Shown here: positions 19,189 to 31,100 of the stretch, piece by piece | How the letters are laid out: each line of letters starts with the position of its first letter | How positions within the stretch are numbered: position 1 is the stretch's first letter | Assembly (NCBI GenBank): GCA_020543525.1 | Contig: JAHYIO010000031.1 | Coordinates: forward strand, 2,232,001 to 2,296,000 | From: Coriolopsis trogii | Lineage: Eukaryota; Basidiomycota; Agaricomycetes; Polyporales; Polyporaceae | DNA length: 64,000 nt | Direction of reading: 5' to 3' | The notes under the pieces: generated by a model | The model's input: only the letters and a program-made list of their open reading frames with translations | Told to the model about the DNA's origin: nothing | Database searches by the model: none | Made by a program: the position numbers and the translations under genes

Positions 19189-20475
19189 GCAGGGACATGT
19201 GGCGGGCAAGTCAGCCGAACAGAAGGACCCGCAGATTGTCAGCCGTCCATGGCAGACGTTGCTCGGGACAGCGGGGGTGCGATCGAGTGCAGCAGCGACT
19301 TGGATCCATATTAGGAAGCGGCACTGGCAGCGAGTGTGCAAGCCCGACCTGCAAGATCACCACAGATGATTGCGTGTCATTAGTGCAGTGTTAATGTGAA
19401 GTAAAAGGAAGACTTTCATACCGAACCCCGCTTTAGGTCGGCCTGACAGTGCTGGACTCCCTGGCGTGACAAGCTGCGATGTAGTTCTGATTATGGTGTC
19501 CTCGCTTTGCACCGGTAAGCCATAGAATATGAACCAAGGCGAACAGATATAGCATAGCATTATCGGTGCGCTCCATGAGGGCATCCCATGACTGGAGAGT
19601 TGAGCCGCAACACCGTGGAAGCGGCTGACAGGAGATGTTATGGCACTGGAAGAGCTGCGAGCTGCGAGCATATCATTATCGAACATTGCTTGAGATTCAG
19701 CGGAGATACACCTATACCCCGGACGCACCTAGCTGTACCTGCTGGGAACCACGTACCGCAGAGCAGTACATATCTTCCTCCAGTGAATGATATTGTCCGA
19801 CCGGCGGAAACAACGCACACGCGGCCTAGTATCCCGATCTCCGGCAATGCACTGAGCGTTGCGGGCGCGCATGGTTGCGGAGATGCCCCTGTCCCGCAGT
19901 GTCTGTAATCATCTTGCGAATACGCTCAACAGCGGGAGAACAGCCCACTTCAACGTTCAACGCTGCGCACATGTCAATGCCAGAGACCACAGCCAAAACT
20001 CAAGAACGCGCCGTTCTCAAGCCACAGGCTCCCATCGGTAAGCAGTAACGTACCATGGTCCACTGTGTCCCCTAGCATTTCCAGCCTTAAGTGCGACGTT
20101 CCGAGCCCGTCCTAGGCCCTGTGCAAAGTTCAAGACGTCCTCGGCGCTCTGAGGAGACGCAGTCTTCCTGGGATCTTCATGACAAAGTCTGCCGTCCTTG
20201 CAGTTCTCCCACCCCACCTGTCAGCCGAATGTGTCTTCTCTGAATTGGCCTTCGATCGCGAATGACTCATTGCCCCCAGACCAAACACGATGTCCATCCT
20301 TCCGCGTCCCAGTGCCTTGGCAGCGCATCGCGGCGGGCGCATCAAGCGCAGTCTGCCATGGGCCGTCCACGTCGATTTTGTCGCTCGGCTACGTGCGCTA
20401 GGGTCGCGGTGAGATCGCACCGCCCTCGGAGGTCTTCCACTGATCGCTCACGACGGTCAGCGGTCGAGCCGTAAG
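19189..20475. other. Left flank of the transposon, no firm genes
   Basis: About 1.3 kb without a gene I can support. Minus-strand frames at about 20017-20420 look somewhat protein-like ('CKDGRLCHEDPRKTASPQSA'), but they need frame changes without good splice sites and match no family I know. They could be a remnant of a gene hit by the insertion. Confidence 0.4.
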
Positions 20476-20484
20476 TACCTGGGA
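20476..20484 (+). repeat. Target-site duplication, left copy (TACCTGGGA)
   Basis: The nine bases TACCTGGGA sit directly outside the left inverted repeat, and the identical nine bases occur directly outside the right one at 28135-28143, in the same orientation. This is the expected footprint of a transposase making a 9-bp staggered cut. Confidence 0.85.
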
Positions 20485-20618
20485 TAGACTCGAGAACCAG
20501 TCGATCGGGAGGTGATGGCGGAGTGCGAAATGGGGGTCACCTCCCGAACGACTGGTCAAACTCGTGGGGGTTTTGGCGCGGTCGCCCGATTTGGTACCCC
20601 GTGTGAATACGTACTTAG
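20485..20618 (+). repeat. Left terminal inverted repeat
   Basis: It begins TAGACTCGAGAACC. Its inner part, 20557-20618, matches the reverse complement of 28014-28075 at 59 of 62 positions. Its outer part aligns more loosely with the right repeat but keeps a hairpin. Short ORFs across it are meaningless. Confidence 0.88.
20496..20556 (+). repeat. Hairpin inside the left inverted repeat
   Basis: The arms 20496-20515 (ACCAGTCGATCGGGAGGTGA) and 20537-20556 are complementary at 19 of 20 positions around a 21-nt loop. The right repeat has its own hairpin at the equivalent place with a different arm sequence. Confidence 0.8.
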
Positions 20619-20735
20619 TGAAATCGCGCAAAGGCTCCTGCGGCGGAGAGAGTATTATATGTTTTCACGCTCGATGCGAGGTGTTTGTCCATGGAAATAA
20701 TGATGATAATGCAGGTATTATACACGATACATGCG

Positions 20736-23700
20736 TCAATAATAGGGTGGATTGATATTTTGAGATGCAGTGGGTGTGGAGGGATATATGGTGGAATGGT
20801 AGCGGTGCAGGGTGGGCGTAGGCATAGGCGTTGATGGTGGGACAGGTATTGAATATGATGGTGTAGGATATGTATTACTTACTAGTGGTGTCGAATGCAG
20901 AGTGCCATTATCCGGTGCGGAGTGCATATAGGGGATGTGCGGGTGTGTAGGTGGGGGTGTAGAAGGGGATGTATGGAAAGCAAGTGGCGTACTGACTGAA
21001 GCCTGAGTGGGCTTGTATCCCTCGGAACCCTGGCCAGCGTAAGACCGCATGCCACGAGATGTAGCTGGCCTGGGAATCCCGTGGTGAGGGATGGATGATT
21101 CCGTATGAGGTGAGTCTGCGGTTTGGTGATGTAGAGGGTGTGTCGGTATGTGCTGATATGTTGGGTACACATGCTGTGACAGATGGTTTGCATTCTGAGG
21201 AGTCCCCAGAGGACGACAGTGGAGCGATGAGTCGGGAAAGGCAAGGGCCTGAGGGCGGTAGGGGTGCGTGTATTGTTGGTGTGTGTAACGGTGTGACATT
21301 GATCGTAGGGTGGGATGAGGTGTTGGCGGCACAGGCATCCCGCCACGGCCCCATATTGGCTGACCAGGTGACAGAGGCGTAATGTAGAGATGGTTCAGGT
21401 CGGCGGGCAGTAGATGTGGCACTGACGATGACGGCGGTTGTTGAAGAGAGGGTCCGGCGCCTGGCGACATGCCCATGGCCGATTTGGGGGACGGCGCTAA
21501 GAAGGCGTTTGCAAGCTCGGTGTCGAAGTCTTCGGAGGCCAGTGTCTGGGACTCCACGCGCGCACGTTTCGACGGAGTTTGATACGCTTCTTGCAGTTGT
21601 GGTCGCTTGTTTCCCGTCGCATGGATGGAGGAAGGAAGAGGGTGAGCAGATGCGGGAATCGTAGTGAGGGGAGTAGGTGGGCAAGCCTGAGGAGGAGGAC
21701 GAGCTTGAGGAAGGGGTGCAAGTTGAGTAGATTGTGCGGGTAGGGGTAACACTGTAAGAGACCCGCTAGGCAGAACGAGGTTTTTGGAGGGGCGTGGTTT
21801 GGCAGGAATAGGCGTGAATACAATGTTGAGAGTCGCTATACGGGCGGCAAGGCTTGCTCCGTAGCGCTTGAAGAATATCCACTTGTCCTTCAGAATCTCA
21901 GTTGCGTGAGCAGCTGTGAGGGGTCCAAGAGTGGTGAGGGTGGTAATGAGGTCGTCGGAGAGGATGCCCAAGTCGCTGTACTGAGCAAATTGGTGATCTC
22001 TTATGAATATCTCCTGGCGCCATACGCGAAGGGCCTGCTGGGCATTCAAATCTGGAAGGCCACGCTTGGACGGAATCTTCACTCGCAAGTCGGCAGTGAG
22101 TGTTGATGCGGGGCGGGTCTGTTCTAGCAAGCGTGGTACGCATATGTCACAACATGGCACAACAGGATCTGCAACATTCCGAGCCCGTCAAAATGCTAAA
22201 TGGTCGCTGTTCGCGAAGGTGATAACGTACCTGGTAAGTCCAAATTCGCACTGTCGAACGCCTTGGCCCACATTTTCCTCCTGCATGACGTGCTCTGAAC
22301 GAATGCTAAGAGGCCTTCGTCTGGTTGTTCTGGATCTAGGCGTGGCTGAACGCCTTGAGGCGGCTCGTCGCGTTGGGTAGAGCCACCTCGATCTACGCCA
22401 TGAGCTTGAGCGTACTCGCGTAGTTTCTTAGCGTCCGCTTTGCTCCCTTTTGATGTGTTGGTCTTCGTTGCAGATACTGGATTACGACGAGAGGTGCGAG
22501 ATGGAACAGGACGGGTGGTGGGTGGGAGGGAAGGCCCTTGCGTAAGGTCAATAGCGTATGCCGACTTCTCAACCAGTAGCACTGCGAGACCTGTGCGATT
22601 TCTCCCTCGCGCAGCACGCCCCGCACGTTGTATGAAATGTGAGAATGTCGCGGGCAGCTTCCACTGAACAACTCTGTCAATATCTGGAATGTTGCATCCC
22701 TAGTAGCGGCGTAACTTGTCAGAGTGTGGATGCGTGATAGCGAGCATGGGAGTACGGACCATTCCGGCGGCGTCAGTACAAACTAAGATCTGAATGTGTC
22801 CTGTTCAGAAGAGCGACATGGCGAGCGTGCGATAGTCGAGGGAAAGTGTGGCATTGAATGGTCGGACAATACCGCAAGGGAGGCTTGTAGTATGCTGTGC
22901 GAGCTTGGCATTGAGGTAGTCTATGATCTCTCCTCCCATAGCGATGTTGTCGACGTATATGTACGTTTTTGGTATGTCGTTGGCGGAGCGAATCCGACCC
23001 GGTGGTGGTATCACGAAGTCGAGATCCGCATATGTATTGAGTGGGTGCTCACAAGCTCGTACAACTATAGAGACATTCGGACGGTCATTGCCCTTGTTTA
23101 TGAAGCGGCTCTGACCTTCGGACTGTGCAAAGAGGAGCGAGGAGTAGATACCTCGGCGGACACGAGCCGTGAGCGTGGCGGTAACAGCGATGACAGGAGT
23201 TCCGGGTGGGAGAAAGGCTCGGATCTTCCCAAGAGTGCCGTACTTCTTGCGGAAGTCTGCGCCCCAATGGACGATACAGTGTGCCTCGTCAATGAACATG
23301 GAGATGATGTTTTTCATGAAGGCCGAATTGCGGAGCACTCGGTTCGTGAACGTGCGGGATTGGAGCATCTCGGGTGACACAAGGATGATCTGGTACTTCA
23401 TAGCCAGAATGTCCTGTGAAAGCTGTCAATCGCGGCGTCGGCGGACAAGCAGAATCACCGATGCATACCCTGATGACGAGAGGCGAACAAGCTCCATTCT
23501 TGCTGTTGAGCGCGATCGCCTTGAGGCCGAAATCGGTGTCGAAGGTCTGAACCTATCACTCATGGCGGTTAGCTGTTACAGACAACAAATGAAGTACAAG
23601 TCCACTTACCATCTCCTCTTCGAGAGCTAGGAGCGGACATACCATCAACGTGAATTTGCGCACTGCGTACCATAGATGGGGTCCCGCAGCCAAAGCGGTC

Positions 23701-23930
23701 TTCCCTGCTCCGGTAGAGGCCTGCACGATCATGTCGATCCCTTCGATCTGCGCCTTTACGGCTTCCAACTGGAAGTCTTTCGGGTCCGAGTCCCAATTGA
23801 AAACTGTTCGCATCTTCGCGGCCAGAGCCTTCACATCTTCAGCTGTCAGCCGTGGACGAGCTTTTGCTTTGACGGGTTTCGGAGTGCTTGTTTTCCATTT
23901 CCCGCTCGGTTTTTTGGTTGCAGGCGGCAT
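20736..23930 (-). pseudogene. RecQ-like helicase of the transposon, interrupted by one stop codon
   Basis: ATG 23930 starts a superfamily-2 RecQ-type DNA helicase. Motifs in order: a Q-motif-like 'DFQLEAVKAQIEG', Walker A 'ASTGAGKT' (residues 71-78), 'LALEEEM', 'YQIILVSPEML', DEAH box 'FIDEAHCIVHWG', motif III 'VIAVTATL', 'DNIAMGGEIIDYL', 'ILVCTDAAGM', 'VVQWKLPATFSHFIQRAGRA' (motifs V-VI), and the zinc-binding-like 'CRRKMW...CCDICVPRLLEQ' after the helicase core. A long Pro/Thr/His-rich tail ends at 20736. Splice sites are canonical. An in-frame TGA at 22805-22807 lies between 'LAMSLF' and 'GHIQILVCTDAAG' and no intron removes it, so this copy should make a truncated protein lacking motifs V-VI. 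Confidence 0.85.
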
Positions 23931-24131
23931 GAGACAGTATATAAGCCAGACAAAGCGGATTGTAGCTGAAGTAGAGGTAGAGGAGCACGTCAAGTCGGGC
24001 GCTTGAAAGCCAGAGAGGAGTTATCAAAACAAAGCGACGCATCTTGGCAGTCGTTTGTATTCTGTGTCGCATACTCAACAGACAACACACATCTGACTAT
24101 ATACTCATCTCTGTGAAGAGAAGTCAGTGTC
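23931..24131. promoter_or_regulatory. Compact divergent promoter of the transposon
   Basis: Only 201 bases separate the two start codons. TATATAA lies at 23938-23944 on the helicase side and TATATA at 24098-24103 on the DUF6589 side. The helicase TATA is within 10 bases of the assumed ATG, so transcription may begin inside the frame, with Met40 as the actual start; that would still retain the whole helicase domain. Confidence 0.5.
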
Positions 24132-27100
24132 ATGGCCGACCTGGATCTAGATGATCTACTTGCCCTATCTCCCTGCCCTTCCTCAAGTCCGCTCAGTTTG
24201 CCCCCTTCGTCGCTGCCCCCACCTACCCCTCCATATCCTCACAACACACCCACACGACCGAACGACAGGGCGGCGTCCATGGACCGACAGACTCCGCTTA
24301 CACCGCATACACCCATTGCTGCACACGAAGACTCCGACTCCGACCCCGGCATCGAAAACACTTCGCCTGCGGTTGGAAACGCGCATGAGACTACGCCTGA
24401 GGTGAGGCGTCGAAAAGGCCAGAAAAAACGGAGCCGTACCCTCGCAGCTATGCGTGCTGTCCAAGCTGAAATCCGCGAAGCTGCAACCGCTGCCGCTGCA
24501 CAAGAAAATGAGGGAGCATATCGAGAGATGGAAGTCCAGGGAAGTGATGCCAAATACACCTGTTTCACGTCAGTTCTCGCTATACTGAAGGAAAATGGAC
24601 ATACGTGGGGGGATTTTGTAGAATGGATCTCAGACCCGGCGGATACAGTGTGCAAGACGGAGCGGTGGACTGGGCTGTTCATCAAACCAACCCAAGTTAG
24701 AACAATCCTGGATCTTTGGGCTTGGAACAATACGAAGAAGCCGCGGCGCGTCGTTCAATCCTGGGCCGTGAACTGTGCATCCAGAATGGTCAGTCTCGAA
24801 GCCGACAAGGTCACACGTAGTGGCATACTTCAAACCCGCCGTCAGGCCTTTACGGATACCCTCGTCCTTGAGTTCAACTTTGCTGCCTTGTACCAGAAAG
24901 TCCGTGCTATGTGTCCGTCCATGACGCAGATCATGGAAGCGTTTAGTACAACCGAACGCCAGAAGAAAGACCGGGCACGATCCGTGGCAACCGTGCGCCA
25001 GCGAGAAAGGGCCGCAAGACGGGACGAGCGCAAACAGACCGTGAGTGCCATGTTGAACTCGTATTCATGCATGTATCTATGCTTACCAGAACAATAGAGA
25101 CTCGGAGCGGCGCTCACCGGCTTGCTAGGCGAGCGCAGCCAAAACAATAGTCTCACGAAGCACGTCCTGGGACTATACTTGTATGTGACTGGAGCTCAAA
25201 GGCAGCTCATCTCGGTCCTCAGTAGCTTGGGAGTCTGCAGTAGTTACTCGACGATCGCTGGGAGCAGCCAGGCCACGGACAAGACGGACGCACAGACAGG
25301 ACCTACCACATCCCAATCATCCTCTCGGCCCTCTCGTTCTCGCTTGTCCTCGATGTTCCCAGGATACCAAGAGGAGTCTCTGGACGACTCCGTGGTGACG
25401 GATGATGAAGACGACTCCGATCCGGACTGGCTACCAGATGAGGATTGCGAAGACTATTCACCCAGTGACAGTGAAGACAGCGGCATTTCGAGCGACGAAG
25501 AACACAATCCATTCCTAGATGCAGGACACAGAGATGACAGACAGGGATCCAGAGAGAGAGAACAACTGGATCGCGTGGAGGGTGCGCCTCCAGAAACTGG
25601 CCAGAGACAAGTCGCAATCGAAGACGCGAGCGACGAGCACGAGCCCGCGTTACCTCCGCAAGCGCCCACGACTCTTCCCTTGCTCGCGCGCGGTGCAGGC
25701 TTGCTTAGACGCGTCTGTCATGCTTGTCGTACAACTACACGATTCATTGCACAAGTGGGACTCTGTGGGCACGTCTACGACAATATCAACATGGTATTCA
25801 AGATCGCTGAGCAAATCCTCGGACGAAAGGATTCACAGGAGAACGGGACTTGCGCGACCGTTTTCCCTCTCTTTGACGCCTCGCCCGCTGACATGCAGAC
25901 CACCGACCTACTCAAGTCTCTCGACAATGCCCCTCCCCTGACCATAGACGACATACTCCACACTCCCGACGAGGCTTCGCTTTTCAATGAATCGCTTCAA
26001 CACGCTGTTCTTCACGACCTCGTATCGTCAGCATACTTCGCACATTTTCGCGCGGACGTCGAGGCTTGTCTACCAGGCAAGGACGACCAGATCCCACTTC
26101 ACAAAACCGACATATATCCCCTTCCGGCCATGCAGATTGACGAGTCGAGTATTACCGGCAATGCGGATGTCGTAGATACGATGTTCCGAGAGCTAGGCTT
26201 CGATGTCGGCACCACCAAGTTCTCTGGAATTGTTCGCCCTATCTTTGGCGACCAGTTGTCTATTGCCCGCCTGCGTACTCTGATTGCAAACCGAGCTGGA
26301 CATGAAACACTCTCAAACTCGTACGCATATGCTGTCTTTGGGCCTGGATTCTTTCACCATCAAATGGCTCTTGTCCATGGAATCATAGAAACTCATTTCG
26401 GCGACTCTTCATCAGGCACGCGCAATCCTAGCTCGATATCTTTCTTCAACACTGTGGTCGACCGCAAGCCGATCACACCCACATCTCTGCCACCCTACCG
26501 AGTCTGCCGCGACATCATCTTGCTCATATTATCTGCATGCATCCCGGTTTGTCTCCAGGAAGTCGCGAACGCCGAGGACCTGGAGGAGTACGCCTCGAAC
26601 GTCACCTTCGAACAGCTTCGCGAACATGTCGCTCAAGCATTCAAACTCATGATCAATCCGACCGCGATTGCCTCCTTGCGTCAGGAGAGGCATGCCGAAC
26701 TCGAGGAGTGTATCCGGCAGGCAAGGGCCGCGGGCGGTGAGGACTCTGACATGGAACCGGATCTCGTCGCCAATCCTCTGACGTCCGGTGACATGGTATT
26801 TGAAAATATCTCTCTCTTTCTCCGCGACGCCCTGGTACTTCGTGAGTTCATAGATGCGATCAAGGGGGGCTACTCGGGCAGAATCATACGTGTTCTCAAA
26901 GTGCTTGCCCTCATGTACCGCGGGTGCGGCCGGGCAAAGTACGCTCATGAGCTCCTCCACCTCCTCCACAACCTCATCCATGTATGGCCCAAGCCCTTAC
27001 GGTATGCGCACAGTCTCGTTCTCGAACTCGATAGTTGACTGACTGATAGTCTGATACACAGTAACATCATAATCAAGAACTGGCTCGTCAATCCGACGGG

Positions 27101-27917
27101 AAAGCCTAATTGCTGGGTCCCCGTCGACCTTCTACAAGAGCACATGAACTTTTGGATCAAGGTGAGCTATCTCGGTCTCTCTTGAGTGTGAGATGTACTG
27201 ATGAACAACCTACAACAGACCGTTTACAAGGCCCAAGGCAGTAACGCATCTTGGGAATGGCTACAGATGGTCTCACCGTGCATTGCGCTGCTCCGACAGC
27301 TTGCCTCGCAAGTCAACACCGCGCTCGGTGCTCGCCTTGGTACTAAACACCATTCTCCCGGGTTGGAGAAGGATCTTGCGACGATCCAAAGCGCGCTCCA
27401 TGAACATGGAGTCCTACGCATTCAACGGGGGCGTTATCTCCACGGTATCAAAGGTGCAGAGGTTCCCAACGTCATCACTCTCGGCCTCGATCGACTTCAT
27501 GGGCCACTTTCCGAGTACAACAAGACATTTGCGCAGCTACAGCAACGCCGTCGAGGTACGCCCCTCACCGCGCACCCCGCCGCAGATCTCCACAAGGACG
27601 AAGCACGCCAGGACGAGGTGTCACCGGACACGGACAGCCTCGTCCGTCTGCCGGTATGCTACAAACTTATTCACCCTGTGACGTTTCGTGTACTCACTCC
27701 GCCCGCTCCGCAGAATGCACACAGCCGAGATATAGCAAATGATGATGGATTCATGTCAAGCGGACGACGGGAGGTTGACAGCGTGGAATCTGCGGACGGC
27801 CTGGAAGATCCTGACGCAGATGACACATTATGGAGATTCTTCGAGGACGAAGAATACGATCCACATCACGCTTTCGCGGAGGAGGACGAGCCCTCTCTCG
27901 ATATCGAGGACTTCTAG
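24132..27917 (+). CDS. DUF6589-family protein, candidate transposase
   Basis: Four exons (24132-25040, 25098-27001, 27062-27161, 27219-27917) give 1203 residues without a stop. The N-terminal 100 residues are Ser/Pro-rich, followed by a basic segment. A conserved block then reads 'GHTWGDFVEWI', 'QSWAVNCASRMVSLEADKVT', 'HVLGLYLYVTGAQRQLISVL' and 'SSLGVCSSYSTI'. An acidic linker follows, then the DUF6589 core: 'VGLCGHVYDNINMVFKIAEQ' (Asp531), 'PIFGDQLSIARLRTL' (Asp688), 'FGPGFFHHQMALVHGIIETH' (His723), 'YAHELLHLLHNLIHVWPKPL', 'NWLVNPTGKP', 'DLLQEHMNFWIK' and 'YKAQGSNASWEWLQMVSPC'. The invariant Asp residues suggest an RNase H-like catalytic fold, but this is inference. The C-terminus is acidic. 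The family is expanded in Agaricomycetes and its function is not established to my knowledge. Confidence 0.82.
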
Positions 27918-28013
27918 AGTGGATGTATTGATTGTGGCAAGGGGAACAATTGAGCATACACGATAAAGCGTCGCGTCTTCTCACTTTGCTTGTAGGCCCT
28001 ATTGTCCAATTCT

Positions 28014-28134
28014 CTAAGTACGTATTCACACGGGGTACCAAATTGGGCGACCGCGCCAAAGCCCCCACGAGTTGGCCCAGCCGTTCGGGTGTTTCTCCTA
28101 GTGGCGCACACCCGAACGGATGGTACCGAGCCTA
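28014..28134 (-). repeat. Right terminal inverted repeat
   Basis: Read from 28134 inward on the minus strand it begins TAGGCTCGGTACC, the counterpart of the left end. The inner 62 nt (28014-28075) are nearly identical to the left copy. The outer part holds a hairpin. Confidence 0.88.
28081..28119 (+). repeat. Hairpin inside the right inverted repeat
   Basis: The arms 28081-28092 (CCGTTCGGGTGT) and 28108-28119 are perfectly complementary over 12 bp around a 15-nt loop. The arm differs from the left copy, yet pairing is kept. Confidence 0.8.
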
Positions 28135-28143
28135 TACCTGGGA
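28135..28143 (+). repeat. Target-site duplication, right copy (TACCTGGGA)
   Basis: Identical to 20476-20484 in sequence and orientation, and directly abutting the right inverted repeat. Confidence 0.85.
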
Positions 28144-31100
28144 GTGTGGACCGAACTTACTTGTGACAACCCTTGTGACACTAGCTTGTGGTGCAACCTC
28201 AACGTCTGATACGCGAGTCGGTTGTGGCCATTGTTGATTATCGCGATCACTGAGGCCACCAGATACGTGCGCAGGTACTGCGGCGATCAGGTCCCTATAC
28301 TGTTTCCGGATGAAAGTCCGAAATCTATGGAAGGTGAGCACAATGTCCATATTCCAGAGACTCAGAGTCGATGTGCAAGGCATCGGACGCATGGCAGAGG
28401 TATGCGCACTGTCAGGGAGAGTCAGCACCGTCATGAGGCCTGTTGTATTACAAGCGCTCCAGTCAGCCATGCGATGTGCGTGCGAGCCACCGATATGAGA
28501 TGTCGTCAAATTCGAGGTCTTCAGCAGAGGCAAAAGAGCGATCTATTCCCAGAGTCTGCGTGTAGGTACTCAAACCTATCATCAAGCGAACCGACCACGT
28601 TGATATCATTGTGGGATGGTGGCGTAGGAAGGCGCAGATACTAGTATGGTTCTTGGAAATGGCACTACTATGGCACTTCCAATGACCGTAGTCGTCACGT
28701 CCCATGCTGCGACACCATCCCACGGGGCTCCCCAATGCAGCACCGATCTTTCACCGCCATGTCACAGAGAGCTCAGAGGAATGGAAGGCAGTCACTCGTG
28801 TTCAAAGCATGCCTAAATCCACATACCTGTTCAGCCGGATGACGTGGCTTCGGAGTTAGGGCTTACACGTCTGAAGATTAGGTCACTTGACGGCGTCTTG
28901 TGGCTTGAAGTGACTATTGCCAATGAGGCCTCCTCGCTCGCCTGAGCAGGCGCAACGTCCAGCATGGTTCTCAAGGCGTAACGTCCCTGAGACCGGGAGA
29001 TATACCGGTCGTCCATGTTCTCTTGCTGTGCCTCGTGTACCGTAATTGTCTTCTGCTGACTTCTGTTTCGTTGAGCATATTCAAATACATCCTAATAGTG
29101 ATGCGCAGGGCGCTTGCAACAGCCCCACACGCGCGACCGTCTGGTTTGCCTACCGAGATTACGTCCCCGGCGCGGACGATTGTAATCCAATTCAACGTAT
29201 TTCTCCCAATCCTGCAGTTCACCCGGACAAAAGAGCGGTTAGCGTACCCGGCTACGCCGGAGACTGCACTCACCGACACCGTCGCTGTCATGCCGAAACA
29301 CGACGCGACTCGGACAGAGACCGCGTTCGTGCATAGTTGCGGTCAGTCTGGAGACTCGACGCGATCTGCAGCAGAGTGTCAACCCAGAAGTGAAGCGTTC
29401 ATGAGCATGTTCATGATTTGCATTTCCGAGGCCGCCCCTTGGAAGCTTGACCGGCTTGGCGATGCGTAAGTAGTCAAACAGGCGCAGTATTACAATCGCA
29501 GTACTCACACCGCTCCGATGTATAGATGACTCGGTCCATAGCAGTGTCAGACCGCCGCCCGATGCGATTAATTGAGGTTGTGGGGCAACGAGCGGTACGA
29601 TCTCCGGAGGTGAAGCCACGATATTGTATAGAATGAGATATCCCAAGGACACTGCTGCCGGTCATCGTTTAACTATATGTCCATGGATGACGAGACCGGG
29701 ACAGACCTGGAGAGCAGTTGCAGTGAAGGCCGGCGCTGCTGCAAACGAAATGGGTCGGCAGCTATATTGAAGTGATGAAGCCTAGGGGCGTGACGGTGCG
29801 TTGCCGATCACAGATAGGAGAGCGAGGGTCCCAAAAAGCCCGATGAGATATTGATGCGCCAAGTGGTTGGCAGCACATCCGGTCCTATCTGGTCAAGCTC
29901 GGACCGAGAAGGTATTAGACCGACATGAGCGAGGCGCTGGAGTGCACTCAGCAGGCGATGCGATGAGCATGTGAGATACAGTACTTAGCGGATGCAATTT
30001 GTATATTATGGTTGCGTCAGCGGTGGGCAGCGCAATCGACGCTGTCACGGTCCTCGCAGTGGTGTCAGAGGCGTAGGTTTATTTACGTGCTCGTGCGTGT
30101 CCGGATATCATGAGTCAGTGGATGCGGAGAGGATATCGGCGGTGGACTCGGGATGCCGGGTGGACGACATTGTCAGAGTGAGTACCGAAGCCGAGTGACT
30201 TGCGTATATCGTGTAATGTGTCCTGATTGCTGACACGATCCGCGTAGCGCTGCCTTCGCGAGGCTGGGTGACTTGACGGGAACCCGGATGCAACGTGGTG
30301 GCGAGTGACACCGGGAGCGTGACGGGATGTGGTCAAATTCGGTCGATAGACGGTTGGCAACAGGAGATGCTCAGATACCAGAGCTGGGAGAGTCGCCTTC
30401 AAATTGGACCTTTGAAGCTGACAGCCGGCGCGAGCGAATGGTGCGTTTATTTAGGTTGTGAGGAACAAGGGGTCGCGGTTCGGACCAGATCTGGGAACCG
30501 GGCGAAGGTTGCAGACCGGCCTCCGACCGGGGATAAGTGGGACTGGGGGCAGGAGACGGGGATGAGGTGGAGATGGGCTGAGAGAGACCGAGCGCCGCGG
30601 GCGTAGAGAAGGAGCATAGGAAAGCTTGAAACTGATCCCATCGGCAACGCGGCGGACATAGCCCCATATTCACACAAGTCCGAGGTCCCAGGGGCCCACA
30701 TAAGGTTGCGGGCGCGCGCTCCACGAGGCGCGAGGCGATTTGAAGTCGTGCCAAGCTTGTGTGCGAGGATGTCCTGCCCAATTTGACCACCTGTAATCAA
30801 ATACGCAGAGCCCAATTCAGACGTGCCCTCAGACCCACGCCGCGTACGCCGCCCGCCCGATGGCGGCGGCGGTGTGCTCGTACGCTGGCTTATCCCGATT
30901 GCTGGCCAAGACGCGGCACAGGCGAAGCATGCTGCGGGGGCACGCATCGTGAGACCGGATTGCAGATCGGCTCGTCAAATTCAACAGACGGGTAGAGCAT
31001 GATTGGGAATTGGGGGAAATTCATGGAGAAGACCGTTGTACGAGATATCGGCCGGGAAAGCACAGCACACACATCATAGACGAGATCCAAGGCCGACGAA

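Follow-up and report, generated by a model that had tools for sequence, protein, structure and literature searches.

AcademH, a lineage of the Academ DNA transposons, was reportedly described by Kojima in 2020. AcademH is given 9 or 10-bp target duplications and a helicase, whereas AcademX, the other lineage of the superfamily, has 3 or 4-bp duplications and a nuclease in place of the helicase, and duplication length is connected there with the enzyme encoded (PMC10045372). DEAD and Helicase_C domains are named for AcademH, KolobokH or Helitron, and AcademH is described from Basidiomycota, Ascomycota and Mucoromycota, in low copy number (PMC10799480); putative non-autonomous Academ elements are noted in another mushroom genome, with the AcademH paper cited (PMC8290104). 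Here, we analysed a 7,650-bp DNA transposon at positions 20485–28134 of a 64-kb stretch (the window, read over 20300–28400) of contig JAHYIO010000031.1 from Coriolopsis trogii, which carries a DUF6589 gene and a RecQ-type helicase gene. We consider it an agaricomycete DNA transposon most likely of the AcademH lineage (probability about 0.8), filed by described features. The link from the Pfam family DUF6589 to this known kind of element is what the analysis adds: the name DUF6589 was absent from the 5.39 million papers searched, and PF20231 or IPR046496 appeared in no relevant paper among those listed. This element was not found in PMC9674265, where neither helicase nor RecQ gave a match, or in PMC12730594, where RecQ and Academ gave none and helicase a single one, for Helitron.

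Structure of the element

The boundaries of the element are given by its ends, its duplications and the ends that it has in common with other copies of the TAG terminal class. Identical 9-bp target site duplications, TACCTGGGA, flank it at 20476–20484 and 28135–28143, and its ends, TAGACTCGAGAA and TAGGCTCGGTAC, match at seven of the first eight bases. Each end has its own subterminal palindrome: the A-end (20485–20556, + strand) combines TAGACTCG with palindrome arms at 20496–20515 and 20537–20556, and the B-end (28077–28134, − strand) combines TAGGCTCG with arms at 28077–28092 and 28108–28123. The left arm of an inner inverted repeat (20561–20622, + strand) is identical to the right arm (28010–28071, − strand) at 59 of 62 positions, and a wider inverted pair of 103 nt is 83% complementary. 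The two genes are divergent, DUF6589 on the + strand and the helicase on the − strand, and no Pfam family besides DUF6589, DEAD and Helicase_C passed the cut-off in the window pieces scanned. A first-pass annotation of this DNA had reported the identical flanks, the inverted repeats with the same inner identity and the presence of just two divergent genes, and all of these were recovered.

When the 10.5-kb region was plainly shuffled 200 times, a 9-bp repeat combined with seven of eight matching end bases arose 12 times (0.06 per shuffle) versus one observed case, and the ends alone are thus moderate evidence only. Chance is ruled out by the inner repeats together with 12 further elements with perfect 9-bp duplications, 7 of which have the same TAG ends.

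DUF6589 as a predicted DDE transposase

The DUF6589 gene (24132–27917, + strand) encodes 1,183 aa, with predicted introns at 25041–25097, 27002–27061, 27162–27218 and 27654–27713, all GT..AG, and two of its exons match DUF6589 (PF20231) with E values of 2e-93 and 3.7e-11. By sequence, it matched no solved structure in a PDB search (best E 0.22) and nothing in NCBIfam. The fold evidence comes from predicted structures of DUF6589 relatives, and their best solved-structure matches are Hermes, a hAT transposase, and the P element, with which they appear to share an RNase H fold with a helical insertion and a D-D-E triad. Family conservation and position in the fold point to Asp 531 (YDN, 25779–25781), Asp 688 (GDQ, 26250–26252) and Glu 964 (LLQEH, 27138–27140), all on the + strand, as the putative catalytic residues. 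Based on the predicted fold, the D-D-E triad, the 9-bp duplications and the empty sites described below, there is strong support for DUF6589 being a DDE transposase of RNase H fold in which a large helical insertion separates the second Asp from the Glu, in line with the role proposed at first pass.

For one DUF6589 relative (P0006), the Glu was placed at E618 from where the structural alignments end (model 628 ~ Hermes 582; model 567 ~ Hermes 609) and from E572, the catalytic Glu of Hermes. A first triad guess for this protein (D305, D342 and E575) was given up, as E575 is not conserved in the second terminal class (CAG class, see below) and the fold points to D184 as the first Asp and to E618 as the Glu.

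hAT and P elements are not known to carry a helicase, and their duplications do not exceed 8 bp; in hAT elements, the duplications are of 8 bp and the transposase has a hAT C-terminal dimerisation domain. The DUF6589 elements differ in their 9-bp duplications and gave no sequence match in the PDB search, and only PF20231 was above the Pfam cut-off in three DUF6589 homologues scanned. Helitrons also encode a helicase and occur in fungi, but they use an HUH nuclease and single-stranded transposition, whereas the window element has a predicted DDE transposase, inverted ends and 9-bp duplications. Given that Hermes and the P element have the closest solved folds, that Academ membership is judged from described features and that no paper was found linking DUF6589 with AcademH, these elements might form a DDE superfamily distinct from Academ, with a fold close to hAT and P, that acquired its RecQ helicase independently. 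We regard this as unlikely, as a DDE transposase with DEAD/Helicase_C and 9–10-bp duplications in fungi is the description of AcademH (PMC10799480, PMC10045372).

At E ≤ 0.001, 415, 263 and 140 DUF6589 proteins were found in separate, possibly overlapping sets, and two scans of virus contigs detected no relative. Three DUF6589 proteins of Ganoderma boninense (P0009, P0130 and P0329) bear the automatic names PRP28 helicase, CshA helicase and aminotransferase regulator, which are apparently wrong labels.

A RecQ-type helicase as near-constant partner

The helicase gene (20736–23930, − strand; predicted exons 23930–23610, 23552–23469, 23413–22760, 22699–22231 and 22168–20736) encodes GAGKT at residue 74 and DEAH at residue 177, and its DEAD and Helicase_C domains lie on the strand opposite DUF6589. 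Among solved structures, the region upstream of the stop codon matches RECQ5 (E 1e-19), WRN, RecQ and RECQ1. An in-frame TGA at codon 338 (22805–22807, − strand) breaks the gene; in the sister copy on C20, the frame continues through this position (C1, C3, C20, C36 and similar names denote contigs of the window's own 38.8-Mb assembly). The window copy is unable to make a full helicase; the earlier description of a complete transposon thus applies to the structure and not to the helicase gene.

DUF6589 loci were counted after merging exon matches, so that the counts are lower bounds, and at least 12 were found in the assembly. The window helicase had matches at E ≤ 1e-5 in 10 places among 12 candidates scored, every one of them adjoining a DUF6589 gene. 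Conversely, a helicase is present at 10 of the 12 DUF6589 loci, the two without being an internally deleted copy (C3:1145810–1147486) and a decayed one (C7). In the C1 element, the Helicase_C match (22.3 bits) falls just below the cut-off of 23.5. Across nine loci, DUF6589 and helicase distances are correlated (r 0.93), a value reached in none of 20,000 permutations of a Mantel test that left out L032 (C28:2528k; DUF6589 piece of 73 aa) and took in both L027 and L029, which are nearly identical, with L027 represented by a helicase piece of 100 aa. Where a TAG locus has both genes (two cases), they are divergent, and in the CAG loci they are convergent, and the pairing must be old, since DUF6589 is just 20–27% identical between the two classes. 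Comparison of the window and C20 copies gave pN/pS values of ~0.26 for DUF6589 (370 codons) and ~0.19 for the helicase (200 codons), at saturation of synonymous sites; these values indicate that both genes have been kept by selection, although the window helicase was broken since. Within this genome, there is strong support for a near-constant partnership of DUF6589 with the RecQ-type helicase, which selection has maintained, and to this extent the earlier coupling of the two genes stands.

The existence of short copies without room for genes implies that the ends can move without these genes in cis, and both genes could then be passengers of an unrelated element with its transposase elsewhere. 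However, DUF6589 relatives have a transposase fold and a D-D-E triad, the pieces scanned revealed no further Pfam-bearing gene within the element, and the same pair is kept in two terminal classes despite their low DUF6589 identity and different gene order. Co-divergence, the age of the pairing and selection on both genes leave passenger capture as no explanation, and we consider it very improbable; repeats of an unrelated element that had captured both genes, named at first pass as a possible refutation, were not seen.

A third, divergent DUF6589/helicase pair was found at C30:728300–738200 (L022), without recognisable ends or duplication, and may be an old remnant or a domesticated pair.

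Other copies and empty sites

Searching the genome with the ends of the window element located further copies, and in all 19 places have one or both ends or an end region. Perfect 9-bp duplications flank 13 elements, of which eight have TAG ends and five have CAGGCTCC ends (CAG class), and their 13 nine-mers are all different, with no fixed motif. The TAG-end elements comprise the window element, C20:30267–38713, a 1,012-bp copy near C4:234000, and those at C3:1080833–1081331, C36:343703–344397, C36:918756–919437, C20:655075–655752 and C3:1145810–1147486. The CAG class includes elements on C1 and C34 and at C20:752k, C3:3537k and C36:1947k–1954k. Five of the 13 are copies of 0.5–1.0 kb known from their ends alone, those of ≤0.7 kb being far too short for either gene. 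The other six places lack a second end or a perfect duplication: C36:455k (L024) and C28:2528k (L032) have one end, and of the four TAG-type places, C36:1947k and C20:1529k have lost one, C9:488k retains the inner repeat only, and C28:1332k has one decayed end and flanks alike at eight of nine positions (CATCTATAG, CATCTCTAG).

Kolobok elements duplicate TTAA, unlike the 9 bp of varying sequence found in 13 of the 13 elements with perfect duplications. KolobokH is a fungal DNA-transposon lineage that likewise has a RecQ helicase and is described from fungi only, but its helicase lies downstream of the transposase domain (PMC9587614), whereas the window helicase is a separate, divergent gene; we give this assignment hardly any credence.

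For the empty-site test, which rests on coordinates, the genome was searched with the two flanks of an element fused around a single 9-mer. The flanks of the C1 element itself match as far as the 9-mer and onward from it, while six repeat copies (on C33, C2, C25, C8, C1:760k and C5) span the junction at 90–97% with equal query and target lengths, and a seventh (C4:2064k, 90%) differs by one base in length. The 1,012-bp C4 copy has an empty site at C4:230813–230978 (99%) and four more at 82–88%, all equal in length to the query stretch. With empty sites for two elements, one per class, the boundaries and the duplication length are fixed in both classes.

The C1 element (L025, ~3869991–3876340) lies within a palindromic, ACCGGTCATGACCGGT-rich repeat of which the genome has about a dozen other copies and which looks like another transposon family. 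The C3 copy at 1145810–1147486 (1,677 bp) shares its ends with the 8,447-bp copy at C20:30267–38713 (identical end-search scores), keeps only a 3′ part of DUF6589 and is probably a recent internal deletion derivative. On C36 (~1947470–1954860; L045 ~1547–1580, L027:6846–6863), a CAG-class element is inserted at the extreme end of a truncated TAG-class element, and its duplication, GTCTACTCC, includes the last bases of the latter.

Probable assignment to AcademH

The nuclease of AcademX is XPG, and no XPG nuclease match to Pfam was detected in the open reading frame pieces scanned. Like AcademH as described (PMC10045372, PMC10799480), the DUF6589 elements are low-copy DNA transposons of a basidiomycete, with a DEAD/Helicase_C helicase in the window element, a DDE transposase according to predicted fold and D-D-E triad, and duplications of 9 bp that are perfect in 13 elements and backed by empty sites in two. 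The first-pass annotation had the element defining a transposon class, a claim that finds no support, as this anatomy is the one stated for AcademH in these papers.

Several points weigh against the assignment. The homology of DUF6589 with Academ transposases is presumed from described features. By Foldseek alone, no match reached E ≤ 0.001, the best to Hermes being 2.5e-3 in one comparison and 0.71 in another. The window helicase is broken, and the helicase match at C36:1948k also contains a TGA. Among the 40 matches listed, none other fits the window element's own flanks. Finally, 4 of the 12 DUF6589 loci lack complete ends plus duplication: no ends were found when looked for on C30 (L022) or at the degenerate C7 locus (L030), C36:455k has lost one end and C28:2528k has one end only.

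Subterminal palindromes and proposed mechanism

In related copies, the 20 pairs of the A-end palindrome are paired in 91% of 100 cells (5 distinct sequences), versus 22–39% for slid alignments. Both partners had changed in two pairs, as many as in 139 of 500 shuffles or more, so that the folded form is weakly supported; the covariation score was reached by 13 of 500. In four CAG elements with both ends read, seven of the eight ends have an 11–13-bp inverted partner ~80–200 bp inward. These palindromes may hint at a role of the helicase or, equally, represent a dimeric binding site. That DUF6589 elements are a mushroom DDE superfamily of their own, outside Academ, with an obligate RecQ co-factor acting during 9-bp staggered insertion on subterminal palindromes that form hairpins, seems to us quite unlikely.

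It is strongly supported that insertion produces 9-bp duplications, which implies a 9-bp stagger in joining. The transposase would bind the TAG or CAG ends and their subterminal palindromes, and excision would be by cut and paste; as a guess, the helicase might open or remodel ends, gaps or repair intermediates. Short copies with common ends and 9-bp duplications presumably moved in trans, and the window copy, if it needs a helicase, would borrow it from another copy such as C20:30267–38713.

For a large Pfam family without assigned function that is common in mushroom genomes, these data offer a testable function with named catalytic residues. The two terminal classes, short derivatives and empty sites provide material for asking what a helicase does in DDE transposition, and the analysis suggests that DUF6589 genes and their adjoining RecQ-like helicases belong to transposons and not to the repair machinery of the host.
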